Assembly (NCBI GenBank): GCA_012031565.1
Contig: JAAUUM010000015.1
Location: forward strand, 1 to 37,422
Reading direction: 5' to 3'
Length of the DNA stretch: 37,422 nucleotides
Origin: Synechococcaceae cyanobacterium SM2_3_2
GTDB lineage: Bacteria > Cyanobacteriota > Cyanobacteriia > Thermostichales > Thermostichaceae
The translations under genes and the position numbers were made by a program. The stretch's first letter is position 1. The number at the start of each line of letters is the position of its first letter. Shown piece by piece: positions 5,456 to 35,985 of the stretch. The notes under the pieces are model-generated. The model saw only the letters and a program-made list of their open reading frames with translations, was not told the origin of the DNA and did not search any database.

Positions 5456-8403
5456 ATGCCTAGAATAGAAGTATATTACGCTTCTCTTTGTCTTGATTGG
5501 AGTCTGAGAATGGTATTCCTGGCCGATCAGCCTTTTCGAGTGGTGTTTGCTGCGGCCTTGGATGCAATGGTGGTATCTGATGCCCAGGGGCGGTTGCTGG
5601 AGGTTAATGCCGCCGCGTCTGAACTGCTGGGATCCCCGTTGGAGGCATTGGCGGGACGGGAGTGGGGATCCCTGGTGAGTTGTCCTCAACAATTATCTGG
5701 ACTATTGGGTCTTTTGGCGGTGGGGCAATCGGGCCGAGGAGCGCTGGAGCTAAATCTGACGGGTGGGGTGAGCAAGACGGTGGAGTATTCTCTCTCTGCC
5801 GCTGGTGATGGATCCCTTGGTCTGCTGATCTTGCGGGATGTGACTGAGCGGATCCAACGGGAGAGGGAACTGCTGGCGGATCAGCAAAAATTTCAGACTC
5901 TATTTCAGATCTTGCCGGCTGGGGTGGCGATTACCGATGCTGTGGGCACCTTGATTGAGGTCAATCCCGCGTTTGAGAGAATTTTTGGCCTCTCAGCTTC
6001 TCAACAGTTGGATCTCACCTACGACGTTAGTGATTGGCAGATCATCTATCCCGATGGCAGTCCCATGCCCCCGGAAGACTTTGCCAGTGTGCAGGCACTC
6101 CAACAGCAGCGTCCCATTCTTGGCAAAGAAAAAGGCATCTTGCGCCCCAATGGAGAGATCGCGTGGATTGAGGTCAACGCAGCCCCGATTCCTCTGGAGG
6201 GGTATGGGGTGGTGATCACCTATATTGATCGGACAAAGCGTAAAGCTGCTGAGCTGGCCCTCCAAAACAATGAGCTGCGTCTACGTCAGATTATCGAAGC
6301 CATTAATGTACATGTTTTTCTTAAGAGTGCTGATGACGACCAAGTTTTGTATGTGAGTCCTGCTTACGAACAGCTCTATGGGCAAACTGTTGGTGACTTT
6401 AATCAGGATCCCAATGGCTGGCTTGAGCGAGTTCACCCCGAGGATCGAGATGTTCTGAGGGCAATCGTAGAACAAGATTGGAACTTAACCTCGTTACAAT
6501 CCAAGGAATATCGCATTATCAGACCGGATGGATCCTACATTTGGGTGTTGGATTCGGTCGCTCCCATTGTTGGAGATACCGGGCAAAATCAATTTATTGC
6601 TGGTATTGCTTTCGATATTACCGACCGAAAAGAGGCGCAACTGGCCTTGGTAGAGCAGGCTGAACGGGAATGGCTATTAAGAACACTAACCCACCAGATC
6701 CGTCGGTCTCTGAATATTGATGAGATCTTGGACGAGGCAGTTGAGAATTTTCGACACTTGTTAAAGGCTGATCGGGTGGTTATCTGTCGCCTTCTGCCGA
6801 ATACAAATGGTGACATGATCACAGAATCAACTGGTGTAGACTGGCCAGCGGTGAAGGGATCCGATACAAAAAATTCTTTTTTTAGGGAAATTTGGGGTAA
6901 GCCCTACTGTCCAGAAATGTTTGTTGCCATTGACGATATTCAACAGGTTAATCTGTCAGATGCCGATCGGCAGTTATTGAAAAAGTTTAACATTCTTGCC
7001 CATTTAGAGGTTCCTATTGTCATCGATAATGCTGTGTGGGGTCTGTTATGTGTCCATTATTGTGGATCCCCTCATGGTTGGCAAGACTGGGAGATCCACC
7101 TTCTGCAAACCGTAGCGGATCAATTGGCCATTGCTATTTACCAAGCTGATTTATTTCACGACTCTCAGGTGTGGGCTGAAACTTTAGAACATCAAGTGGA
7201 GGATCGTACAGCCGATTTACAACAAGCTTTAGCGTTTGAATCTACTTTGCGATATGTCACCGATCAGGTGCGATCCAGTCTTGATGAGGCTGAGATCTTA
7301 CAGGCCGTGGTGGAGGGTTTAGGTCGGGGATTAAAAGCCGATGGCTGTTATGTCAGTCGTTATCACGAAGATAGTCTTTACTACACGGTTGATTATGAAT
7401 GGACTTTGGTTCATCCCTCCATCAAGGGACGTACCTACACCGCCAATCTAGACATCATGAAACAGTTTTTTCAACATCAGGGGATCCAATACTGCATCAA
7501 TCATCCTGATGCCAGTTGGGTCACTATCGCCGTTTTTCTAATTTCCTTTGATCCAGGGATCCAGTATGGCTTTATGACCATAGCTCGACCCAAAACATCG
7601 TTTTTTTCGCCGGGGGAGATCCGTTTGGCGGAGCAGGTGGCTATGCAGTGTTCCATCGCTATTCGACAGGCACGCCTCTACCAAAGTTCTCAATCTCAAG
7701 TGGAAAAACTTCAAGAACTCAATCGCCTCAAACAGGATTTTATCGATACGATCTCTCATGAGTTACGTACTCCTCTCACCAGCATGAAATTAGCAATTAC
7801 AATGCTGGAAAAGTTTCCACACAACCCGGCAAAACAGGAGCAATATCTCGCTATTCTCAAGTCTGAGTGGAATCGTGAGCTGAATTTGGTCAATGGCTTG
7901 TTAGAGCTACAGTCTCTAGAATCTAGCAATAGGATTTATACCCAGAGCATCGTGGATGTTGGGGCTTGGTTGTCTTCACTGGTTGAGCCTTTTCGCGTAC
8001 GATGTGAGCAACACCAGCAAGTCTTACAGATAGAATGGGATCCGAGATTGTGACCCTTAATTCTGACATTTTTGGGCTCGATCGCATTTTATCTGAGTTG
8101 CTCACTAATGCCTGTAAATATACGCCTTCTCGGCAGTTAATTCAATTGACTGTCAGCAAACTTGAGAATGGCACCCGTTTCCAAGTCACGAATACGGGAG
8201 TAACCATTCCTATCGATAAATTGAGCCATATCTTCGATAAATTCTATCGGATAGCAGATTTGGATTATTTCAATCAAGGGGGCACAGGATTAGGATTAGC
8301 CTTGGTACAAAAAATGGTTGCTTTGCTAGGGGGGAGCATTGTGGCTGAAAGCGCGAATAATATCACCACTTTTAGATTTGATCTGCCTTCTGTCAAGATC
8401 TAA
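5456..8403 (+). pseudogene. PAS/GAF multi-domain sensor histidine kinase, split by a one-base frameshift (ORFs 5456-8053 and 8035-8403)
   Basis: First ORF has PAS and GAF regions and a HisKA box (DFIDTISHELRTPLTSMK). Second ORF supplies the HATPase_c part (ILSELLTNACKYTP, GTGLGLALVQKMV). Adding one C after GGGATCC (8037-8043) joins the frames as EWDPEIVTLNSD. Confidence 0.85.
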
Positions 8404-8498
8404 AGAAAAACGTCAATAGTTTGGTTGCTCGGCCCAAAAGCTCATGAGATGTTAGAGTTCGCTTACGGTTCAAAACGCTCTTTGTTGGCAGTGGTGCT

Positions 8499-8594
8499 AT
8501 GACAAACCCGAAGCAGCTAAGGATCCTGACCAGTGGCGCGGATTGTGGCGGGCTCAATGCGGTCAGCCGAGGTGAGGTGGGATCCCGTGTCTGA
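8499..8594 (+). pseudogene. N-terminal remnant of 6-phosphofructokinase, now a 31-codon upstream ORF
   Basis: Reads MTNPKQLRILTSGADCGGLNAVSRGEVGSRV*, resembling the PFK N-terminal ILTSGGDCAGLNAVIR motif. Stops overlapping the start of the CpcT-like ORF. Confidence 0.6.
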
Positions 8595-9168
8595 ACTGGC
8601 TTACAACCAAGTGATCCACTGGCTAGAGGGCACCTATAGCAATCGGGAGCAAGCCCTGAAGGATCCCGTTTGGTTTATTCCAGTCAGCCTTTGGTATGTG
8701 AAGCTGCCAAGCCTGTTTGAGCAGGGAATCGGCTTTTTTACAGAGCAGGTCAATCAACATACCCCCCAAGCTTTTTACCGCAGCCGGGTTTTGCAACTGA
8801 TGCGGGATCCCTTGCGGTTGGAGAACTACAAGCTCAAGGATCAAGCCGCCTGGGCAGGAGCTTCTCAACAAGCTGAGCGATTGGGTCAGATCACCCTCGC
8901 GGATCTGGATCATTTACCGGACTGTACCATCTACCTGACTCCAGAGACCGACCTGTTCGAGGGGAAAATGAGTCCCGGCCACCGCTGCAAGCTCAACCCC
9001 ACAGATACGGTGGCGATTGAAATCAGCTTTGAACTCTATGCTGATCGCTTCCTCACCTTAGATCGAGGCATCGACATCGCCACGGGTCAACAAACCTGGG
9101 GATCCAGACTGGGATCCTACGACTACCGCAAGCAAGGCCCTCCGCCCGTAGTGGTTGAGCCCAATTAG
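8587..9168 (+). CDS. CpcT/CpeT-family phycobiliprotein chromophore lyase
   Basis: WLEGTYSNREQALKDP, YRSRVLQL, ENYKLKDQAAWAGA, SFELYADRFLTLDRGIDIATGQQTWGS match the CpcT/CpeT pattern. GTG start at 8587 follows GAGGTG; the tracked ORF opens at 8533. Confidence 0.85.
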   Translation: MSELAYNQVIHWLEGTYSNREQALKDPVWFIPVSLWYVKLPSLFEQGIGFFTEQVNQHTPQAFYRSRVLQLMRDPLRLENYKLKDQAAWAGASQQAERLGQITLADLDHLPDCTIYLTPETDLFEGKMSPGHRCKLNPTDTVAIEISFELYADRFLTLDRGIDIATGQQTWGSRLGSYDYRKQGPPPVVVEPN

Positions 9169-9198
9169 TTGAACCCAATTAGTTGACCCTAATTAATC
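9157..9198 (+). repeat. Three near-identical tandem 14-bp units overlapping the CpcT-like stop codon
   Basis: GAGCCCAATTAGTT / GAACCCAATTAGTT / GACCCTAATTAATC. Confidence 0.75.
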
Positions 9199-9294
9199 GG
9201 CTTACCCGTTTGCCCCGTCGCCCCATAAGTTGCACACTATACTCTTGCAGAATGCACAGCCGTTTAGGCTAGCAACGTCATCAGGAGAAATGGT

Positions 9295-10122
9295 GTGGAC
9301 GGACTCGAAGCGTTGATTTTAGGCATTGGTGGAGCGATCTCTGGCATCCTGGCCGGGATCCTCGGAATTGGGGGGGGTGTCTTGCTTAACCCCTTACTGG
9401 TGGGGGTGGGAACTACGCCGGTACAGGCAGCAGCGACCAGCAGTTTAGCCATCTTGATGACGGCAACAGCGGGCACCTTCCAGAATTGGCGGATGGGGTT
9501 TCTGCAAATCGAGAAGACCCTTTACCTCGGGATCCCGGCGATTTTGACGGCACAACTGGGGGTACTGCTGGGCAGCAATGCTCCCGACTATCTATTGGCA
9601 TTGGGCTTTGGGTTGCTGCTGATCATCAATATCTATCTGGTGGGGCTCAAGAAAAAGGCCATCACGAAAGCCCAGTCTCTTACAGGGGATCCCGAGGCTC
9701 AGGTGGACTCGCTGCCGGCTGTAACTCCACCCCAGTCCTTTTGGCGAACACCCTTGGTGGCGCGACTGACCACAGGGGGCTTAGCCGGACTTTTGGCAGG
9801 ACTATTTGGGGTTGGCGGTGGGGTTGTGATGGTGCCAATGCAAATCCTGTTGCTCAACGAGCCCATCAAAGATGCCGTTCGTACCAGCTTGAGTGTGATT
9901 GTAATTACGGGCATCTCTGCCTGTGTGGGTCACGCCTTGCGGGGCAATGTCTTGGTTCTCTATGGCCTGGTTTTGGGGTTGGCGGGCATGATCGGAGCAC
10001 AAGCTGGCACCCGCTTCTTGCCAAAACTATCCGATCGGACGATTAGCATTGCTTTTCGGCTCTTGATGGCGGTGCTCTCCACCTACATGTTTTGGAAAGC
10101 TTGGGCACTGGTAAATAGCTAG
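9295..10122 (+). CDS. Sulfite exporter TauE/SafE-family membrane protein
   Basis: 275 aa with two Gly-rich repeats (GILGIGGGVLLNPLL and GLFGVGGGVVMVPMQILLL) typical of TauE/SafE. GTG start after AGGAGA. Confidence 0.88.
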   Translation: MDGLEALILGIGGAISGILAGILGIGGGVLLNPLLVGVGTTPVQAAATSSLAILMTATAGTFQNWRMGFLQIEKTLYLGIPAILTAQLGVLLGSNAPDYLLALGFGLLLIINIYLVGLKKKAITKAQSLTGDPEAQVDSLPAVTPPQSFWRTPLVARLTTGGLAGLLAGLFGVGGGVVMVPMQILLLNEPIKDAVRTSLSVIVITGISACVGHALRGNVLVLYGLVLGLAGMIGAQAGTRFLPKLSDRTISIAFRLLMAVLSTYMFWKAWALVNS

Positions 10123-10173: not shown

Positions 10174-10212
10174 TATATAGTCCAGATAATTGATACTTAT
10201 CTGGACTATATA
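10174..10212. terminator. Perfect AT-rich inverted repeat (16-bp arms, 7-nt loop) between convergent genes; possible bidirectional terminator
   Basis: TATATAGTCCAGATAA - TTGATAC - TTATCTGGACTATATA, arms perfectly complementary. Lies between TauE/SafE (+) and the DUF2470 gene (-). Confidence 0.5.
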
Positions 10213-10243
10213 AGCCTTTTCAGCTGGCGGGAAGGCGCTTAGA

Positions 10244-10505
10244 CTACCGTTCCAGACTCAAAAATCGTAATCTCGCTGCAATCAAGATCCGCTCAGCCTT
10301 GAGGGTGTCCCCCTGCGCCAGGAAACTTTCAATTGGATCCCTGCCCATAACTTGACTCAACGGCGGTCATCCGCACCCAAAGTCAATTGCAATTGGCTCA
10401 TCAGTTAGCTCCACCCAAGCAATCAGGTGCTGTTGCCAAAACCAATCACGAAGTCGGGTGCCACACAAAATTAGGCAATCTTGTACAGATGGAGTAGCAG
10501 TATCT
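10244..10505 (-). pseudogene. Possible ORF relic with one internal TGA
   Basis: One frame reads DTATPSVQDCLILCGTRLRDWFWQQHLIAWVELTDEPIAIDFGCG*PPLSQVMGRDPIESFLAQGDTLKAERILIAARLRFLSLER*. Family not recognised. Confidence 0.3.
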
Positions 10506-10537
10506 TAATCCTTTAGATTGCGTTCATAAATCAGCTG

Positions 10538-10828
10538 TTAAGAACGGGCTTGCTTGATCATGGCAATCAGAGTGTGGTGAGCATCTTCTGAATCTTGTAG
10601 TGGGTGATCAAATGGGATCCTAATCTGGACAGGATCCGCTGCGGCCTCTGAACGGGTATTTAAGGTCATGCCATCGGCATCAATCGATATCATTTCCGCC
10701 GACAGGACCGGCTCAATCTGGCCATAGACACGAGCATAGAGGGCCACAGCCTCAGCATGATCCTCATTCATATGCTTGCAAATACGGTCGCTTACCGCAG
10801 GAGTCAAAAGGTCGGCCATACTAAGCAC
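10538..10828 (-). CDS. DUF2470-domain protein
   Basis: 96 aa; ICKHMNEDHAEAVALYARVYG and SIDADGMTL match the DUF2470 pattern seen in heme-related proteins. Confidence 0.8.
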   Translation of the reverse strand: MLSMADLLTPAVSDRICKHMNEDHAEAVALYARVYGQIEPVLSAEMISIDADGMTLNTRSEAAADPVQIRIPFDHPLQDSEDAHHTLIAMIKQARS

Positions 10829-10994
10829 TCGGTAAATTCGGTAAAGAAGGTAATGTGCCGCCCGTAGACTGGATCAAACCTTGGGCAGGCTCAATAAGGC
10901 GATTCTAACCCCCAAGCCATTCCCCCTCACAAGCCCAAAACAAAGGGATCCCGATATCAGGATCCCTGAGCAGTCTTAAAACTGAGAATCCAAT

Positions 10995-11198
10995 TCACAG
11001 CAAGCCCACATCCATCCCAGGCTTACCGGTGGCCAATTCCACTTTGACAATGCGACCTCCAGCTTTCTGGATCCGCTGCTGCTCTTTGAACCAGTTTTCG
11101 TAAGGCACCAACTTGGTAAAGAAGGTATTTTGTAGCTCACGCTGCGTACGAATCCGGGTTTGACTCGGCACACAAGCCGTCACTTTAAACATCCGCAT
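10995..11198 (-). CDS. apcC: Allophycocyanin core linker (Lc)
   Basis: MRMFKVTACVPSQTRIRTQRELQNTFFTKLVPYENWFKEQQRIQKAGGRIVKVELATGKPGMDVGLL. Internal ATG at 11198 chosen over the longer ORF. Confidence 0.95.
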   Translation of the reverse strand: MRMFKVTACVPSQTRIRTQRELQNTFFTKLVPYENWFKEQQRIQKAGGRIVKVELATGKPGMDVGLL

Positions 11199-11382
11199 GG
11201 CTTTGATCTCAGTAATGTAACAGATACAAAACAGGCAACCCGCCCCAGAAAGCTCGCGCACAGCACGCACACCAGATTCCCGTCACAAGCTGCCTGTCGT
11301 TGGGCCATTTTTGTGAGAGGCTAGCTCAGATCTTACGAATCCCTAACCACACAATCCTGGATGGAATGGCGATCAAGTGTGA

Positions 11383-11868
11383 CTAGCTCAAGCCAGAGCA
11401 GATGTAGTCGAAGTACACGCCCATTTCTTTGCCAGCATCAGAACCCACCAAGGAGGCGGTTACTTCTTTCATGGCTTGGATGGCTTGTACGGTGGAACCC
11501 ACAGGCACGCCCAAGGAGTTGTAGGTCTCTTTGAGTCCGTTCAGCACCCGCTCATCCAGGATAGAGGCGTCACCCGCCAACATGGCATAGGTGGCATAGC
11601 GGAGATAGTAGTCCATGTCGCGGATGCAGGCAGCATAGCGACGGGTGGTGTACATATTGCCACCGGGACGGGTCAAGTCAGAATACAGCAACGCTTTAGC
11701 GGCGGCATCCTTGACGATGGTGGAGGCATTGGCGGCGATGGTGCCAGCTGCGCGCACACGGATTTCGCCGGTGGCGAAGAAGGACTTCAGTTTATCGATG
11801 GCAGAGCTATCGAGATACTTGCCCTGCACGTCGTAGCTGTTGATAACAGAGGTGACTGCGTCTTGCAT
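11383..11868 (-). CDS. apcB: Allophycocyanin beta subunit
   Basis: 161 aa; [20 protein letters not shown]...[25 protein letters not shown], bilin-binding Cys motif. Confidence 0.97.
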
Positions 11869-27443: not shown

Positions 27444-28087
27444 CTAGGAAAATTTAGTCTGTTGCAAAACGGTCAAAACTGCCTGGGTGCGATCCCGAAC
27501 TCCCAGCTTGTGCAGGATGGAATGGACATGAACCCTGACAGTGCCCGTGCTGATGAACAAGTCTGTGGCGATCTCTTGGTTGCTTTTGCCCTGAGCCATG
27601 AGCAGCAGAATTTCTTGCGGGGGGTAAGGGTATCCCATTGGGCAGGCTGTAAAGGGGGGGTGAGACCCTGGCGCAGGGAAGCAGTGGCGGTGGGATCCCA
27701 CCAAGAGGCCCCGGCCACAATAGAGCGAATGGCCAGTAAAAGAGAGTCTGCCGGGATCCCTTTGAGACAGTAACCTGCGGATCCGGCTTGGATCAATTGG
27801 GCGATCAGGCTGGGGCGAGAGTGGGATGTGAGGATGAGGATGGGCAGTTGGGGATGGCTGTTTTGGAGTTGACGGCAGGTTTCCAGGCCGCCTAAGCCGG
27901 GTAAGCCAATGTCGAGAATCACAGCATCGAGAGGTTGCGATTGGGCGATATCGAGAGCAGTCTCGCCGTCTTCAGCCTCCAAAAGAGATAGAACATCCGG
28001 CTCTTGGCGCAAGCGGGTGGCAAGTCCGAGACGGAATAGTTCATCATCCTCGACCAGTAGTAAATGTAAGGGCTGACTCATCGTCAT
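27444..28087 (-). pseudogene. NarL/LuxR-type response regulator, frameshifted between REC and HTH
   Basis: ORF 27473-28087 carries REC (LLLVEDDELFRLGL, VILDIGLPGLGGLE) then WDTLTPR. The LuxR HTH (EILLLMAQGKSNQEIATDLFISTGTVRVHVHSILHKLGVRDRTQAV) continues in the frame of ORF 27444-27704. Confidence 0.85.
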
Positions 28088-29157
28088 CAGGGGTAAAAGG
28101 GGATCCTTACTTCCAATTTTGCGCCTCGGTGGGGGCGATTTTCGGCCCAGATTTTGCCGTGGTGGGCTTCGATGATTTGGCGACTGAGATAAAGTCCTAA
28201 CCCGGTGCCTGTGGTTTGTCGCTGATTTTCTCCTTGATAAAAACGCTCGAAGAGATGGGGCAGTTCGGGGGGAGGGATCCCTTGCCCTTGATCCAATACT
28301 TGCAGACTACAGTGATGGCCGTCGGATCCCAGCTTCAGATCCACTCGTCCGCCACGGGGGGAATGTTGGATGGCATTGATCAGCAGGTTGGAGAGGACGC
28401 GCCGCAGTTGGAGGGGATCCCCCTGCAGGAGAAGGGTGGGGCGAAATTCGGAGTGGAGGGGGCTAACCCGTAGGGTGATGCGGCGATGGGTGGCTAGATC
28501 TGTCAGGCTGGCAGCGGTGTCTTCGGCCAGGGCAAAGATATCGACGGTTTCGGGGTGCAGATGTAAGCCTTCTAGGTCGATGCGATAGACATCGACCAGG
28601 GTTTCCACCAGTTGCAGGGTGGTGCGTTGACTGCGGGCCATGATACTGAGCACCTGTTTTTGGGCGGGACTCAGGGATCCGAAGTGTCCTTGGAGAAGCA
28701 GAGATAGGGTTTCTAGGGATCCCAGCAGGGGGGTTTTTAGGTCGTGGGTGAGGGTGGCGTCAAAGTCCTCTCTAATTTGGACAAGGTGTTGGGCGGCTTG
28801 CAGTTGGGCTTGTTGTTGAAGCAAGGTCTGTTGGCGCTCTTGATTGATGGCCGCCAGGATCCCGGTGACCGCAAGGGCTAGACAGGCGATCAGGCGGTTC
28901 AAAAGATCGACACTGGAGTAAGCAGAAGGATCGGGGATCCACAGGTTGGAGAGGGTGAGGAGGATGGAGAGAGGAATGGTGAGACGGATCCAGTCTTTGC
29001 CGCTGAGCAGGATAGGGCCTGTGTAGAGATAGCCAAAGACATAGGGAACAGGGGTCAGATATTCCAGCATCAAAATAATGACAAAGAGTGCCACCAAGCG
29101 CAGTCTGTGGGGGGATGACAAAGGCATAGCGAGTATGGAGCTGCAAAGTGTTGTCAT
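28087..29157 (-). CDS. Membrane sensor histidine kinase
   Basis: Hydrophobic N-terminus; HisKA FDATLTHDLKTPLLGSLETL; N box LLINAIQHSPRGG; GTGLGLYLSRQIIEAHHG. Confidence 0.9.
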   Translation of the reverse strand: MTTLCSSILAMPLSSPHRLRLVALFVIILMLEYLTPVPYVFGYLYTGPILLSGKDWIRLTIPLSILLTLSNLWIPDPSAYSSVDLLNRLIACLALAVTGILAAINQERQQTLLQQQAQLQAAQHLVQIREDFDATLTHDLKTPLLGSLETLSLLLQGHFGSLSPAQKQVLSIMARSQRTTLQLVETLVDVYRIDLEGLHLHPETVDIFALAEDTAASLTDLATHRRITLRVSPLHSEFRPTLLLQGDPLQLRRVLSNLLINAIQHSPRGGRVDLKLGSDGHHCSLQVLDQGQGIPPPELPHLFERFYQGENQRQTTGTGLGLYLSRQIIEAHHGKIWAENRPHRGAKLEVRIPFYP

Positions 29158-29375: not shown

Positions 29376-29645
29376 ATGAAAGACATTGCACCTGTAACCA
29401 TGCAGGTCTGGATTCAACCTCATAGTCTTTATGCTGGTAAACGGCTGAGCGATATTCCTCTGCCAGAGGGTTGTTACCTACTAGGATTGGTCAGAGATCA
29501 TCGACTGCTTGAAGATAATTCAGATCTTGAAATTGAGATTAATGATTACATTTTGGCCGTAGCTTTGGATCCCACTCATACCGCTCATCTTGACTCAGTT
29601 TTGAAGCGAATTGAGAAGCATATTGAGATGACTGGTGCAGAATAA
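29376..29645 (+). CDS. Small protein resembling a stand-alone RCK_C/TrkA-C domain (copy 1)
   Basis: 89 aa; [48 protein letters not shown] follows the RCK_C pattern (S-x-GK-L-L-x-Lp....R...D.ILav). Confidence 0.6.
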   Translation: MKDIAPVTMQVWIQPHSLYAGKRLSDIPLPEGCYLLGLVRDHRLLEDNSDLEIEINDYILAVALDPTHTAHLDSVLKRIEKHIEMTGAE

Positions 29646-29683
29646 AACATCTGAGATAGTCAGCGTTTCCTCAGAGATCAATT

Positions 29684-29992
29684 ATGAATGGCATGTCTCC
29701 ATTACCCATAAAATCATGGATTCAACCTTTGAGTTGCTATCGAGGCCAATGTTTAAGTCAGATTCCCATGCCTGAATCCTGTCAGATTTTGGGCATAGTG
29801 CGAGAACGGTTGGGGGACATGTCTTTATCAACTCAGCCCGATAGATCCCGGTACTTAATTTGGGCTGAGCAGGATCCAGAAATTCAGTTCAATGATTACA
29901 TTTTAGCAGTGGCGCTGAATCCAATGTATGCCCCCAAACTGGAACTGGTTTTGGGCCGGTTTGAGACTCAAGATCGTTGTTTATTGAGCTAA
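29684..29992 (+). CDS. Small protein resembling a stand-alone RCK_C/TrkA-C domain (copy 2, paralog)
   Basis: 102 aa; [32 protein letters not shown]...[15 protein letters not shown] aligns with the preceding ORF. Confidence 0.6.
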
Positions 29993-29997
29993 TTACA

Positions 29998-31693
29998 ATG
30001 CTTATCCAAGGTTTTCTCCAAATTGGGATCACGCTTTTATTGATGATTCCGACCGTCTTCTTACTCGGGCCGTATATGGCAAGAGTGTTTCTCAAAGAAA
30101 AAACAATCTTAGATCCCATTGGGATCCCGGTTGAGAGACTCATTTACGGAGTTTGCGGGATCTGGATCCATCCTGAGCTATCGATGACCGGATGGGGGTA
30201 TCTCAGGGCGGTGCTATATTCCAATCTTTGGATGACATTGTCAGTATTTTTGATCATCATGTTTCAGTGGGCGTTGCCCTTTAATCCCACAGGCTTAGAT
30301 GCCCCGAACTGGGATCTGGCCCTGCATACGGCACTTTCATTTGTCACCAATACCAATCAACAGCACTATTCTGGAGAAAATACTTACACCTATTTCACCC
30401 AAATCGGCGCGCTCGGATTCATGATGTTTACCTCGGCGGCTTCAGGAATTGCGGTGGCGATTGCCTTTATCCGTGGTCTGACAGGGCGACCTTTGGGCAA
30501 TTTTTATGAGGATTTAATTCGGGCGATCACTCGCATTTTATTGCCTATCTCCCTTGTGGGCGGGATCCTTTTGTTGATATTGGGGGTGCCGGAAACCTTG
30601 GCGGGGCCAGCAGTGGTGACCACATTAGAGGGATCCAGGCAAGCAATTGCCAGAGGCCCAGTGGCACACTTTGAGATCATCAAAGAATTGGGAGAAAATG
30701 GGGGTGGCTTTTTTGGGATTAATTCCGCCCATCCCTACGAAAATCCCACTACATTGACCAACTTGATTGAAACATTGATCATGTTGGCGATTCCGTCCAG
30801 CTTGATTGTGACCTATGAGATTTTTGCTAATAATATCAAGCAAGCCTGGTTACTATTTGGCATGGTCTTTGCCATCTTTGCATTACTGATTGGTGCGACA
30901 GCGGTTGGGGAGTTTTGGGGCAATCCGCTAGTAAATGAACGACTGGGATCCCAGTGGCCCAATATGGAGGGGAAAGAGGTTCGCTTTGGCTGGGCGCAGA
31001 CAGCTTTTTGGGCAGTTTCCACAACAGCTACTATGTGTGGGGCAATCAATGGACTGCATGATTCCCTGATGCCGCCTGGAGGATTTTCCACCCTGTTGAA
31101 TATGTTTTTGCAAATTATTTGGGGGGGGACAAGGCACAGGAACCGCCTATCTGTTCATTTTCCTAATTCTCACCGTCTTCTTGACAGGATTGATGGTGGG
31201 CCGAACGCCAGAGTTTTTAGGACGGAAAATTGAAAAACAGGAGATTGTTTTAGCCAGCGTCATCTTGTTAGTTCACCCAATCCTGATCTTGATTCCCAGT
31301 GCAATCTCGATTGGGATCCCCGATCTATCCGGCATCAGCAACCCAGGATCCCATGGGATCTCTCAGGTGGTCTATGAGTATGCTTCTGCTGCCGCCAATA
31401 ATGGATCCGGGTTTGAGGGATTGGGGGATGGCAGCTTGTGGTGGAATCTCAGCGCGGTAGGGGTGATAGCAGTGGGACGATATGTGCCCATTATGGCTTT
31501 GTTGCTGTTGGCGGATGGCATGAGTCGTAAGCAACCCGTGCCTGAAACTGCTGGAACCTTGCGGACAGACAGCGGATTATTTACCGGAGTGACGGCAGGA
31601 ACCATCTTGATTTTGGGCTTGCTGACTTTTCTACCCGTATTAGCGTTAGGGCCAATTGCCGAAGGTTTTCAACTTGCAAGTGGATTGAGATAG
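29998..31693 (+). pseudogene. kdpA: Potassium-transporting ATPase subunit A, one frameshift
   Basis: ORF to 31233 is KdpA ([38 protein letters not shown]). The remainder ([21 protein letters not shown]...) lies in the +1 frame (31181-31693). The break maps to a G8 run at 31131-31138. Confidence 0.9.
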
Positions 31694-31791: not shown

Positions 31792-33879
31792 ATGCTGTCA
31801 TTTGTAAATCCTCGCCAACCACGCGGCCCTAGAGGGCTACGTCGCCATACCCCCAAAGTCAATACTCAGGGCATCTATCGTAGAGCTATCAAAGAGGCTT
31901 TTCGCAAGTTGGATCCCCGTGTTATGGTTCGCAACCCCGTCATGTTTATTGTCTGGGTCGGGACAGTTATCACATTTTTTCTCACCTTGGATCCCAATTT
32001 ATTCGGCACCGGATCTGAAGAGAATCTACGCTTATTTAACGGATTGATTACGTTTATCTTGTTTTTTACACTTGTCTTTGCCAACTTTGCAGAATCAGTA
32101 GCGGAAGGACGGGGTAAAGCTCAGGCAGATTCTCTGAAAACTATCCAATCTGACACCCTTGCCCACAAGATTTTATCTGACGGATCCCTGCAAGATATCA
32201 GCTCTACCCAACTGCGAAAAGGGGATCTGATCAAAGTGATTGGGGGTGAAATGATCCCTGCCGATGGAGAAGTTGTGCAAGGGGTTGCCTCAGTGGATGA
32301 ATCTGCCATCACAGGTGAATCAGCTCCAGTTCTCAAAGAGCCGGGATCCGATGTGGCTAGCTCAGTCACGGGAGGCACACGGATCCTGTCGGATGAGTTG
32401 TCGATTCGGGTGACGGCAGATCCTGGAAAGGGTTTTATTGATCGGATGATCGCTTTGGTGGAAGGGGCGGAACGGGCTAAAACTCCCAATGAAATTGCCC
32501 TGACAGTTTTATTAGCCGTATTGACGCAAGTATTTCTGGTGGTAGTGGCTACACTTTTACCTTTAGCGAGCTACATAGAAAACCCAGTTAGCATTGCTGT
32601 CTTGGTGGCTCTTTTGGTAGCGCTAATCCCTACAACGATTGGCGGCTTACTCAGTGCTATTGGCATTGCTGGTATGGATCGAGTGTCATAGTTTAATGTG
32701 ATTGCCACTTCAGGACGCGCAGTAGAAGCCTGTGGTGATATCAATACTTTGATTCTGGATAAAACTGGAACGATTACACTGGGTAATCGTTTAGCAGAAG
32801 AGTTTATTCCTGTTAATGGTCACACAGAGATGGAGGTGGCAGAAGTTGCCCTCAAATCTAGTCACTTTGATGAAACACCGGAGGGTAAATCCATTGTCAA
32901 ATTGGCAATTACTATGGGGATCCGCCGATCTGGCGATCTCCAATCAGCGGAAGGGATAGAATTCTCTGCCAAGACCCGCATGAGTGGCACCAATTTTCCA
33001 GATGGCACAGAATATCGTAAAGGAGCAGTGGATTCCATCAAGGGTTTTGTCCGCTCTCGTGGGGGATCCTTATCTCCTGATTTGGACAAAGCCTATGAAG
33101 ATATTTCACTTGTGGGCGGCACACCTTTGGCTGTCTGTAAAGGGGGAGAATTGTATGGGGTGATTTATCTCAAAGACATCATTAAACCGGGGATCCGGGA
33201 GCGATTTGATCAACTGCGTCGCATGGGCATCCGTACCATTATGTTGACTGGAGATAACCGGATTACAGCCCAAGTCATTGCCCGTGAAGCAGGTGTCGAT
33301 GACTATATTGCTGAAGCAACCCCCGAAGATAAAATTCGTGTCATCCAGGAAGAACAAGCTCGGGGAAAATTGGTAGCCATGACCGGAGATGGGACTAATG
33401 ATGCCCCAGCGTTAGCCCAAGCCAATGTGGGAGTGGCCATGAATTCTGGCACACAAGCTGCCAAAGAAGCAGCCAATATGGTGGACTTAGATTCGGATCC
33501 CACCAAGCTCATTGATATCGTCACGATTGGGAAACAACTTTTGATCACGAGAGGAGCTTTGACAACCTTCTCTCTGGCTAACGATATTGCCAAATACTTT
33601 GCTATCATCCCAGCCTTATTTGCGGGCATTGGGCTTGAGAGATTGAATGTGATGGGACTAGCCAGTCCAAATTCAGCTATTCTTTCAGCATTAATTTACA
33701 ATGCTTTGATCATTCCTGCCTTGATTCCATTAGCTCTAAAAGGTGTTGAGTTTCGCCCTTTGACCGCCAATGAATTATTGAGGAGAAATATCTTTATTTT
33801 TGGACTGGGCGGTGTTGTGGCCCCTTTTGTGGCGATTAAAGTGATTGATATTGTTATCGATGGGATCGGGCTTGCTTAA
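31792..33879 (+). pseudogene. kdpB: Potassium-transporting ATPase subunit B, interrupted by an in-frame TAG
   Basis: P-type ATPase motifs VDESAITGESAPV and [11 protein letters not shown] in the same frame, separated by [22 protein letters not shown] (TAG 32689-32691). Confidence 0.92.
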
Positions 33880-33926: not shown

Positions 33927-34187
33927 ATGAAGTCTTTCAAACATTTCTCGCGTATACCACCCGCGCTGTCCTTGACCTTCTCTGTGGGAGTTGCTCGAAA
34001 TTGGCGGCTATTGACTCAATTGCTGGTGGTCTTAATTATTTCAGATCTGTTAGTGATTACTCCCGCTGTTTGGGCACAGGGATCCCTATCCCTTCTACAA
34101 GCCTGGGCATTAGGGGTTTTGGGATTGGTAGCTGTTGGTTTATCGATCTATTTGTTTATGGTGATTTTTCAGCCAGAACGTTTTTGA
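33927..34187 (+). CDS. KdpF/KdpG-like small membrane protein
   Basis: 86 aa between kdpB and kdpC; hydrophobic segments and KdpF-like tail LSIYLFMVIFQPERF. Confidence 0.6.
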   Translation: MKSFKHFSRIPPALSLTFSVGVARNWRLLTQLLVVLIISDLLVITPAVWAQGSLSLLQAWALGVLGLVAVGLSIYLFMVIFQPERF

Positions 34188-34198
34188 GGATTTTGGTC

Positions 34199-34822
34199 AT
34201 GTTGATGCGCGAAATGAAAGCTGCAATTTTCTCTACCTTGAGTCTATTTATTTTGACAGCTGTCATCTATCCCGCTCTTTTATTGGGGATTGGATTGATT
34301 TTTCCGGTGCAAGCCACGGGTAGTTTGCTTGATGCCCAAGGCAACTTCACCACGGATCCCAATCAAGCCATTGGCTCTGCACTAATTGGACAGCCCTTTA
34401 GCCAACCCCAGTATTTTTGGAGCCGTCCCAGCGTTGTCGACCACAGCACAGCGGATCCCAATGATGATCCCAACGGGATCCTGCAAACGGGCCTATCGGG
34501 TGGCAGTAATTTGGCTCCTTCTAATCCTACCTTGCTAGAATTTGTAGATTCTCAAATTCAATCTTTGCAAGATGCCGGACAAGAGGATATTCCTGGAGAT
34601 CTGGTTTACACATCTGGATCAGGATTGGATCCCCATGTTTCTCCCCAAGGGATCCTGTTACAAGTTGAGCGAGTTGCCCAAGCACGAAATATCAGCCCTG
34701 ATCAGATTTAGCCCCTAATTAACCAAGCCACTGACCATCGTTTTTTAAGACTTTTTGGGGATCCCGGTGTCAATGTTTTGCGTCTAAATATTGCTCTCGA
34801 CCAAAACTATCCAGCAGGTTAA
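34199..34822 (+). pseudogene. kdpC: Potassium-transporting ATPase subunit C, interrupted by an in-frame TAG near the C-terminus
   Basis: KdpC motifs SALIGQPFSQPQYFWSRPS, SGSGLDPHVSPQGILLQVERVAQARNISPDQI*PLINQATDHRFLRLFGDPGVNVLRLNIALD (TAG 34709-34711). True-looking stop TAA 34820-34822. Confidence 0.92.
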
Positions 34823-34827
34823 GGGAT

Positions 34828-35985
34828 ATGTATAATCCTGATCATGATCTGGCAAAAAATTCCTCTTCTCCTGAGACACCTCCCCTCAATAACGGCATTT
34901 ATCCCTATCGACGTGGCAAACATAAAATCTTCATCGGCATGGCACCTGGGGTGGGTAAAACCTATCGAATGTTGAGTGAAGCCCGCCAACTCAAAGCTGA
35001 TGGCATTGATGTGGTGGTTGGTGTGTTAGAGACCCACGGTAGAGCTGAGACTGCTTTTCAGGCCGAGGGATTGAAGATTATCCCCCGCAAGCAGGTCACT
35101 TGGCACGGTGTCACGTTGACCGAAATGGATCCCGATGCCATCATCGCTCGGCAACCTCAATTAGTCTTGGTGGATGAGCTTGCCCATACCAATGCACCGG
35201 GATCCTTTCATCAAAAACGCTATCAAGATGTAGAACAAATCCTCGCAGCAGGCATTGATGTTCACTCAACTGTCAATATCCAACATTTAGAAAGCCTCAA
35301 TGATTTAGTCGCTCGCATCACAGGTGTCATTGTCCGAGAACGGATTCCAGACAAACTATTTGAAGATGCCGATGAAGTCTTAGTTGTCGATGTCACACCT
35401 GAAACCCTTGAAGAAAGGCTGAGGTATGGCAAGATTTATGCACTCAACAAAGTTGATCAAGCCCTAACTCATTTTTTCCAACGCCGCAATCTCATAGCCC
35501 TACGGGAGCTAGCCCTACGAGAAGTTGCCGATAATATCGAAGAAGATATAGCAGACACATCTTCCCTAACGGTGCAGGAACGATTGATAGTTTGCGTCTC
35601 CACTTATCCTAATTCCCTTCAACTGATTCGCCGGGGATCCAGGTTAGCCAGCTATCTCAATGCTAAACTTTATGGCTTGTTTGTTGCCAATCTAGATCGC
35701 TTTCTCTCCAAAGACGAAACCCTCCATATCGAAACCTGTGAACGATTGATTCAGGAATTTGGTGGCGAGTTTGTCAAAATAGCGGGATCCAATGTGGCTG
35801 AAGCCATAGCTAGAACTGCCGAGCAATGCAAAATCACCCAGGTGGTCATTGGTGAAAGCCCAAAAAAGGTTTCTTGGACATCGTTTCTTGATCTAAGAAC
35901 ATCGATGATCCGCAAACTCATTCAAAGGCTTAATGGGGTTGATATTCATATTATTTCTGTAGACAAGTCTCCCCCCAATTCATAA
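34828..35985 (+). CDS. kdpD: Truncated KdpD-type protein (KdpD N-terminal plus Usp-like region, no histidine kinase)
   Basis: GKHKIFIGMAPGVGKTYRMLSEA, VDELAHTNAPGSFHQKRYQDVEQIL. ORF ends after the Usp-like region at 385 aa. Confidence 0.9.
   Translation: MYNPDHDLAKNSSSPETPPLNNGIYPYRRGKHKIFIGMAPGVGKTYRMLSEARQLKADGIDVVVGVLETHGRAETAFQAEGLKIIPRKQVTWHGVTLTEMDPDAIIARQPQLVLVDELAHTNAPGSFHQKRYQDVEQILAAGIDVHSTVNIQHLESLNDLVARITGVIVRERIPDKLFEDADEVLVVDVTPETLEERLRYGKIYALNKVDQALTHFFQRRNLIALRELALREVADNIEEDIADTSSLTVQERLIVCVSTYPNSLQLIRRGSRLASYLNAKLYGLFVANLDRFLSKDETLHIETCERLIQEFGGEFVKIAGSNVAEAIARTAEQCKITQVVIGESPKKVSWTSFLDLRTSMIRKLIQRLNGVDIHIISVDKSPPNS

Follow-up and report, generated by a model that had tools for sequence, protein, structure and literature searches.

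The window analysed here, meaning the whole stretch of 37,422 nt from contig JAAUUM010000015.1 (GCA_012031565.1) of Synechococcaceae cyanobacterium SM2_3_2, a draft assembly of 323 contigs that is 89.8% complete, contains two small open reading frames (ORFs) immediately upstream of kdpA. RCK_C protein 1 (29376..29645, +; 89 aa) and RCK_C protein 2 (29684..29992, +; 102 aa) share 41% identity over 96 columns in BLASTP (E=8e-25), protein 2 contains 14 inserted residues, and the ATG of kdpA at 29998 lies 5 nt past the stop codon of protein 2, which confirms the initial annotation of two paralogous genes directly 5' of kdpA on the same strand. Substitutions between the two rck copies are most frequent at codon position 3 and least frequent at position 2 (0.47, 0.24, and 0.61 at positions 1, 2, and 3, respectively), so that both copies behave like true coding genes. 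They are followed by kdpA (29998..31693, +; identified by tblastn with KdpA of the relative G002 and from the sequence itself), which is frameshifted within eight consecutive G at 31121-31128, kdpB (31792..33879, +) with an in-frame TAG at 32689-32691, a gene for a KdpF-type small subunit with a long N-terminus (33927..34187, +; Pfam Potass_KdpF, E=3e-11), kdpC (34199..34822, +) with an in-frame TAG at 34709-34711, and a gene for a short KdpD of 385 aa (34828..35985, +; KdpD domain PF02702, E=1.6e-96), in which Pfam detected no kinase domains. Upstream of the rck-kdp operon and divergent from it are genes for a histidine kinase (28087..29157, -; HisKA and HATPase_c) and a response regulator (27447..28087, -; Response_reg), the latter with a frameshift near 27630 in this assembly, as indicated by a two-frame tblastn match; the layout is the same in G002, where the kinase is also kept opposite the rck-kdp operon. 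A scan upstream of the operon revealed no promoter-like site. Elsewhere in the window, a large PAS/GAF-type histidine kinase gene (5456-8388) has an apparent frameshift near 8000-8050, with tblastn pieces in two frames, and an ORF at the contig end (37177-37413, -) resembles a transposase fragment by eye.

Both small proteins are homologs of the RCK_C domain and are predicted to have its fold. Protein 1 matches Pfam TrkA_C (PF02080) with E=1.8e-6 and 28.2 bits against a cut-off of 27. Protein 2 alone has no significant Pfam or NCBIfam match and was assigned to RCK_C because it is a paralog of protein 1, belongs to the family profile, and has the corresponding predicted fold. TrkA_C is matched by 14 of 18 members in the alignment of relatives, and a family profile including both proteins matches solved RCK_C structures, namely the C-terminal domain of Vibrio TrkA (E=3.8e-7), TM1088B, and, weakly, KtrA of Bacillus subtilis. 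The top PDB matches of the AlphaFold (AF2) models of proteins 1 and 2, whose confidence is moderate (mean pLDDT 70.3 and 78.6), are TrkA RCK_C domains with TMq of about 0.6. The RCK_C pattern noted before thus holds at the level of Pfam for protein 1 and of profile and predicted fold for both. TrkA_C was the sole domain found by Pfam and segment prediction, with no RCK_N or membrane segment in either protein, which bears out their stand-alone form.

We surveyed 391 cyanobacterial genomes, with KdpA present in 177 and absent in 214. Strong matches to the family profile were found across the class in 30 genomes, 28 of the 177 with kdpA and 2 of the 214 lacking it (Fisher p=1e-8, with the counts taken from the search results). 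Of the 28 kdpA-containing carriers, 27 have rck among kdp genes, mostly immediately 5' of kdpA, and only G092 (L116) does not. These 27 include two genomes in which rck stands beside degenerate kdp genes (G071 and G304) and one in which it adjoins kdpD on a separate short contig (G163). Recurrence of the family in kdp operons across the class implies that the observation in the window is not due to chance, and neither of the two outcomes that could have overturned the initial annotation, absence of an RCK_C fold or of a kdp association in other genomes, occurred. When 104 kdp loci were fetched and searched with the iterated family profile, a short RCK_C ORF was detected in 20 of them, 15 upstream of kdpA and 5 on its downstream side, where the ORF follows kdpC, follows kdpD, or stands between these two genes, suggesting that rck shifts within the kdp cluster yet remains in it; the other 84 loci, some of which end at contig ends, had no such ORF. 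A pattern search based on a more restricted alignment yielded 7 named loci, and named carriers include Nodosilinea, Halomicronema, Phormidium, and Tildeniella; a contig search with protein 1 alone as query gave no match. Away from kdpA, rck was found in L116 and on plasmid A of Trichormus variabilis, where it is beside two short KdpD-like genes.

On the KdpA tree the presence of rck is patchy, with 14 gain or loss changes, and besides f1, f14, f24, f26, and f34 it extends to deep branches (f15 and f33). These changes rule out a single clade of rck-bearing kdpA; the distribution is consistent with an association that is old and has been lost or gained repeatedly. Considering also that most kdp operons have no rck, the gene appears to be dispensable for Kdp. 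Several neighborhoods showed additional features. In both L132 (Trichormus variabilis plasmid A, 7971-9241) and L116 (5980-7656), the neighbors of rck encode a conserved protein (IYFLS...DPEMI) and a small membrane-like protein rich in Cys (CxxCxFF). In L113 (G304, about 10200-11700) and L112 (G071, about 7400-9900), kdpB and kdpC have been deleted, so that kdpA is followed by kdpD, and rck is kept; the deletion junction in L113 is an in-frame KdpA-KdpD fusion.

A single copy is the norm in rck-bearing kdp operons. No second family copy was seen in any other kdp operon examined, and the tandem pair was seen only in SM2_3_2, whose protein 2 is nearer than protein 1 to the single copy of G002 (98.6 vs 77 bits in BLASTP). 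The duplication therefore looks private to the SM2_3_2 lineage. A heteromeric ligand sensor, as previously proposed for the pair, is ruled out as a conserved system by the single copies elsewhere, and the interest appears to lie in the linkage of single-copy RCK_C to kdp across cyanobacteria, the pair being a lineage-specific duplication. L035 has one rck copy and a separate full-length TrkA-type protein nearby; at this locus (L035:12644-14638, oriented to kdpA), rck follows kdpD and stands just before the gene for this RCK_N/RCK_C protein, an arrangement that links the Kdp and Trk systems.

All 36 collected members, including both window copies, have the motif [LIM]P-x2-C, although they were gathered by profile and this count is not fully independent; one of the 36 is a frameshifted remnant in which LL replaces LP. 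The invariant Cys is residue 33 in protein 1 and adjoins the position that corresponds in the alignment to Asn, a ligand contact of S. aureus KtrA. We propose a Kdp-linked RCK_C family characterized by co-location with kdp and this motif, and both features are present in the window. Some members (L074, L119, and L120) also have a hydrophobic N-terminal segment, which would suit a role at the membrane. In the L120 paralog (L120:4732-6845), a predicted transmembrane (TM) segment is combined with RCK_C; its gene lies directly 5' of an Na_H_Exchanger gene and downstream of one for a full-length KdpD kinase. The description of these proteins as having no membrane partner is thus valid for the window proteins themselves in that they have no TM segment, but not for this paralog, with its predicted TM segment and adjoining Na+/H+ exchanger gene.

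RCK domains are regulators of K+ channels and antiporters. We consider it an even prospect that the free-standing RCK_C protein is an accessory regulator dedicated to the Kdp K+ pump of cyanobacteria. By analogy with other RCK_C domains it would form a homodimer; it would be co-transcribed and co-expressed with KdpFABC, and it may tune the pump, or the accompanying short KdpD, in response to a signal from the cytoplasm, similarly to the control of KhtU by KhtT. The position of the L120 paralog 5' of an Na_H_Exchanger gene reproduces the gene pairing of KhtTU (PMC10117811) and was counted in favor of such a regulatory role. A more specific version, which we put forward tentatively and with clearly less confidence, is that a dimeric, Cys-marked RCK_C regulatory subunit binds KdpFABC physically and gates K+ pumping via a ligand or redox signal, with a putative ligand bound at a site other than the classical c-di-AMP site.

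For SM2_3_2 itself, we see a somewhat less than even chance that the operon is being lost and that both rck genes are functionless leftovers, a reading that concerns this strain only and is compatible with the others. The intact Kdp pump assumed in the initial annotation is not what the assembly contains, since kdpA, kdpB, and kdpC are each damaged by a frameshift or an in-frame stop, implying that this kdp locus may be decaying; together with the response regulator there are four lesions within about 7 kb. Six sampled genomes of the same family (G001 and G003-G007) have no kdpA, and L112 and L113 likewise pair rck with degenerate kdp genes. However, the two rck genes as well as kdpF and kdpD have open reading frames, kdpA and kdpB are 75-84% identical to those of G002 apart from the single lesions, and the run of eight G that carries the kdpA lesion is a typical site of assembly error; in such a draft, both decay and sequence error are possible.

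It is also conceivable, but in our view rather unlikely, that the RCK_C protein acts on expression by binding to the short KdpD, to the divergent histidine kinase, or to both, and thereby sets kdp transcription. In L025, L048, and L123, rck indeed stands between kdpC and kdpD with kdpD as the next gene, it accompanies KdpD-like genes and no kdpA on the Trichormus variabilis plasmid, both the window and G002 have the divergent kinase-regulator pair opposite the operon, and RCK_C is used in the transcription factor BusR (PMC8517857). Nevertheless, the commonest site of rck is directly before kdpA rather than kdpD, the RCK_C proteins have no DNA-binding domain, and membrane-anchored versions as well as the antiporter-linked paralog point to transporters.

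The suggestion that the ligand is c-di-AMP, such that the RCK_C protein would shut Kdp at high c-di-AMP in a KtrA-like manner, fared less well, and we regard it as quite improbable. SM2_3_2 has a gene for a diadenylate cyclase (DAC, E=3.8e-40), c-di-AMP is bound by the RCK_C domains of KtrA, KhtT, CpaA, and BusR and by KdpD of S. elongatus (PMC5897029), and RCK structures with bound c-di-AMP (5f29, 4ys2, and 4xtt) are among the AF2 fold matches. However, these structures rank lower, the best fold and profile matches being TrkA RCK_C domains. The c-di-AMP contacts of S. aureus KtrA are I163, I164, D167, I168, R169, A170, N175, I176, and P191 (PMC7288161); in a mapping inferred via the KtrA alignment, D167, R169, and N175 are replaced, falling on variable residues and an invariant Pro, and the loop of the family is 2 residues shorter than that of KtrA. 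The RCK_C dinucleotide signature (I/L)(I/L)X2DX1RX5N(I/L)(I/L) (PMC10117811) occurs in 0 of 21 RCK_C-matching ORFs and in neither window protein. As B. subtilis KtrA, which is reported to bind c-di-AMP (PMC5573677), also has no such contacts or signature in the aligned stretch, the missing contacts are weak evidence against c-di-AMP sensing. Finally, a thiol-redox switch, in which the invariant Cys, situated close to the dimer pocket, would sense the thioredoxin or oxidative state and couple photosynthetic redox to K+ uptake, seems very improbable: the Cys is present in all collected members, and its position is occupied in the profile alignment by Thr in TrkA, Ser in TM1088B, and Val in KtrA, but the residue may be structural and the family has no second conserved Cys.

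The open-access literature searched yielded no account of cyanobacterial RCK_C or TrkA-C proteins linked to kdp. Should a conserved stand-alone RCK_C indeed be tied to Kdp across cyanobacteria, RCK control would for the first time be linked to a P-type K+ pump, and the protein would offer a concrete candidate for how phototrophs control Kdp quickly. Its gene occurs in sequenced strains that are open to testing. If RCK_C gates KdpFABC, channel-type RCK control would be extended to a pump, and such a subunit of a P-type ATPase is not known to have been described.

Among known systems, the kdp-linked family shares fold and sequence homology with the RCK_C domains of TrkA and KtrA (PF02080) and is closest to TM1088B and to the C-terminal domain of Vibrio TrkA. 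Unlike those proteins, the window proteins are free-standing and have no RCK_N nucleotide-binding half, and therefore do not qualify as gating-ring proteins; genes of the family accompany those of a P-type ATPase instead of a TrkH/KtrB channel (TrkH is also encoded in the SM2_3_2 genome), and the family differs in its invariant Cys and, from KtrA, in its shorter loop. One member is already annotated at the domain level, namely RefSeq WP_011316490.1 from Trichormus variabilis plasmid A ('TrkA C-terminal domain-containing protein'), which has 45% identity to the query used, is located beside KdpD-like genes in the absence of kdpA, and carries no functional annotation. Control of Kdp is known through c-di-AMP binding to KdpD-USP, a kdp c-di-AMP riboswitch, and phosphorylation of KdpB Ser162 (PMC8214093, PMC6488665, PMC7535926); these mechanisms target the same pump, but none employs a separate RCK_C protein. 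KhtT and CpeA of the K+/H+ antiporters KhtTU and CpeAB are likewise small cytosolic proteins with an RCK_C regulatory module encoded in a K+-transporter operon. In contrast to them, the kdp-linked family consists of an RCK_C core with short tails in which further domains were not detected, is devoid of the c-di-AMP signature, and has Kdp as its most frequent partner: the window copy adjoins kdpA, and only the L120 paralog lies beside an antiporter-type gene, Na_H_Exchanger. Judged by analogy, the closest functional counterpart of the kdp-linked RCK_C protein is nonetheless KhtT in its relation to KhtU.
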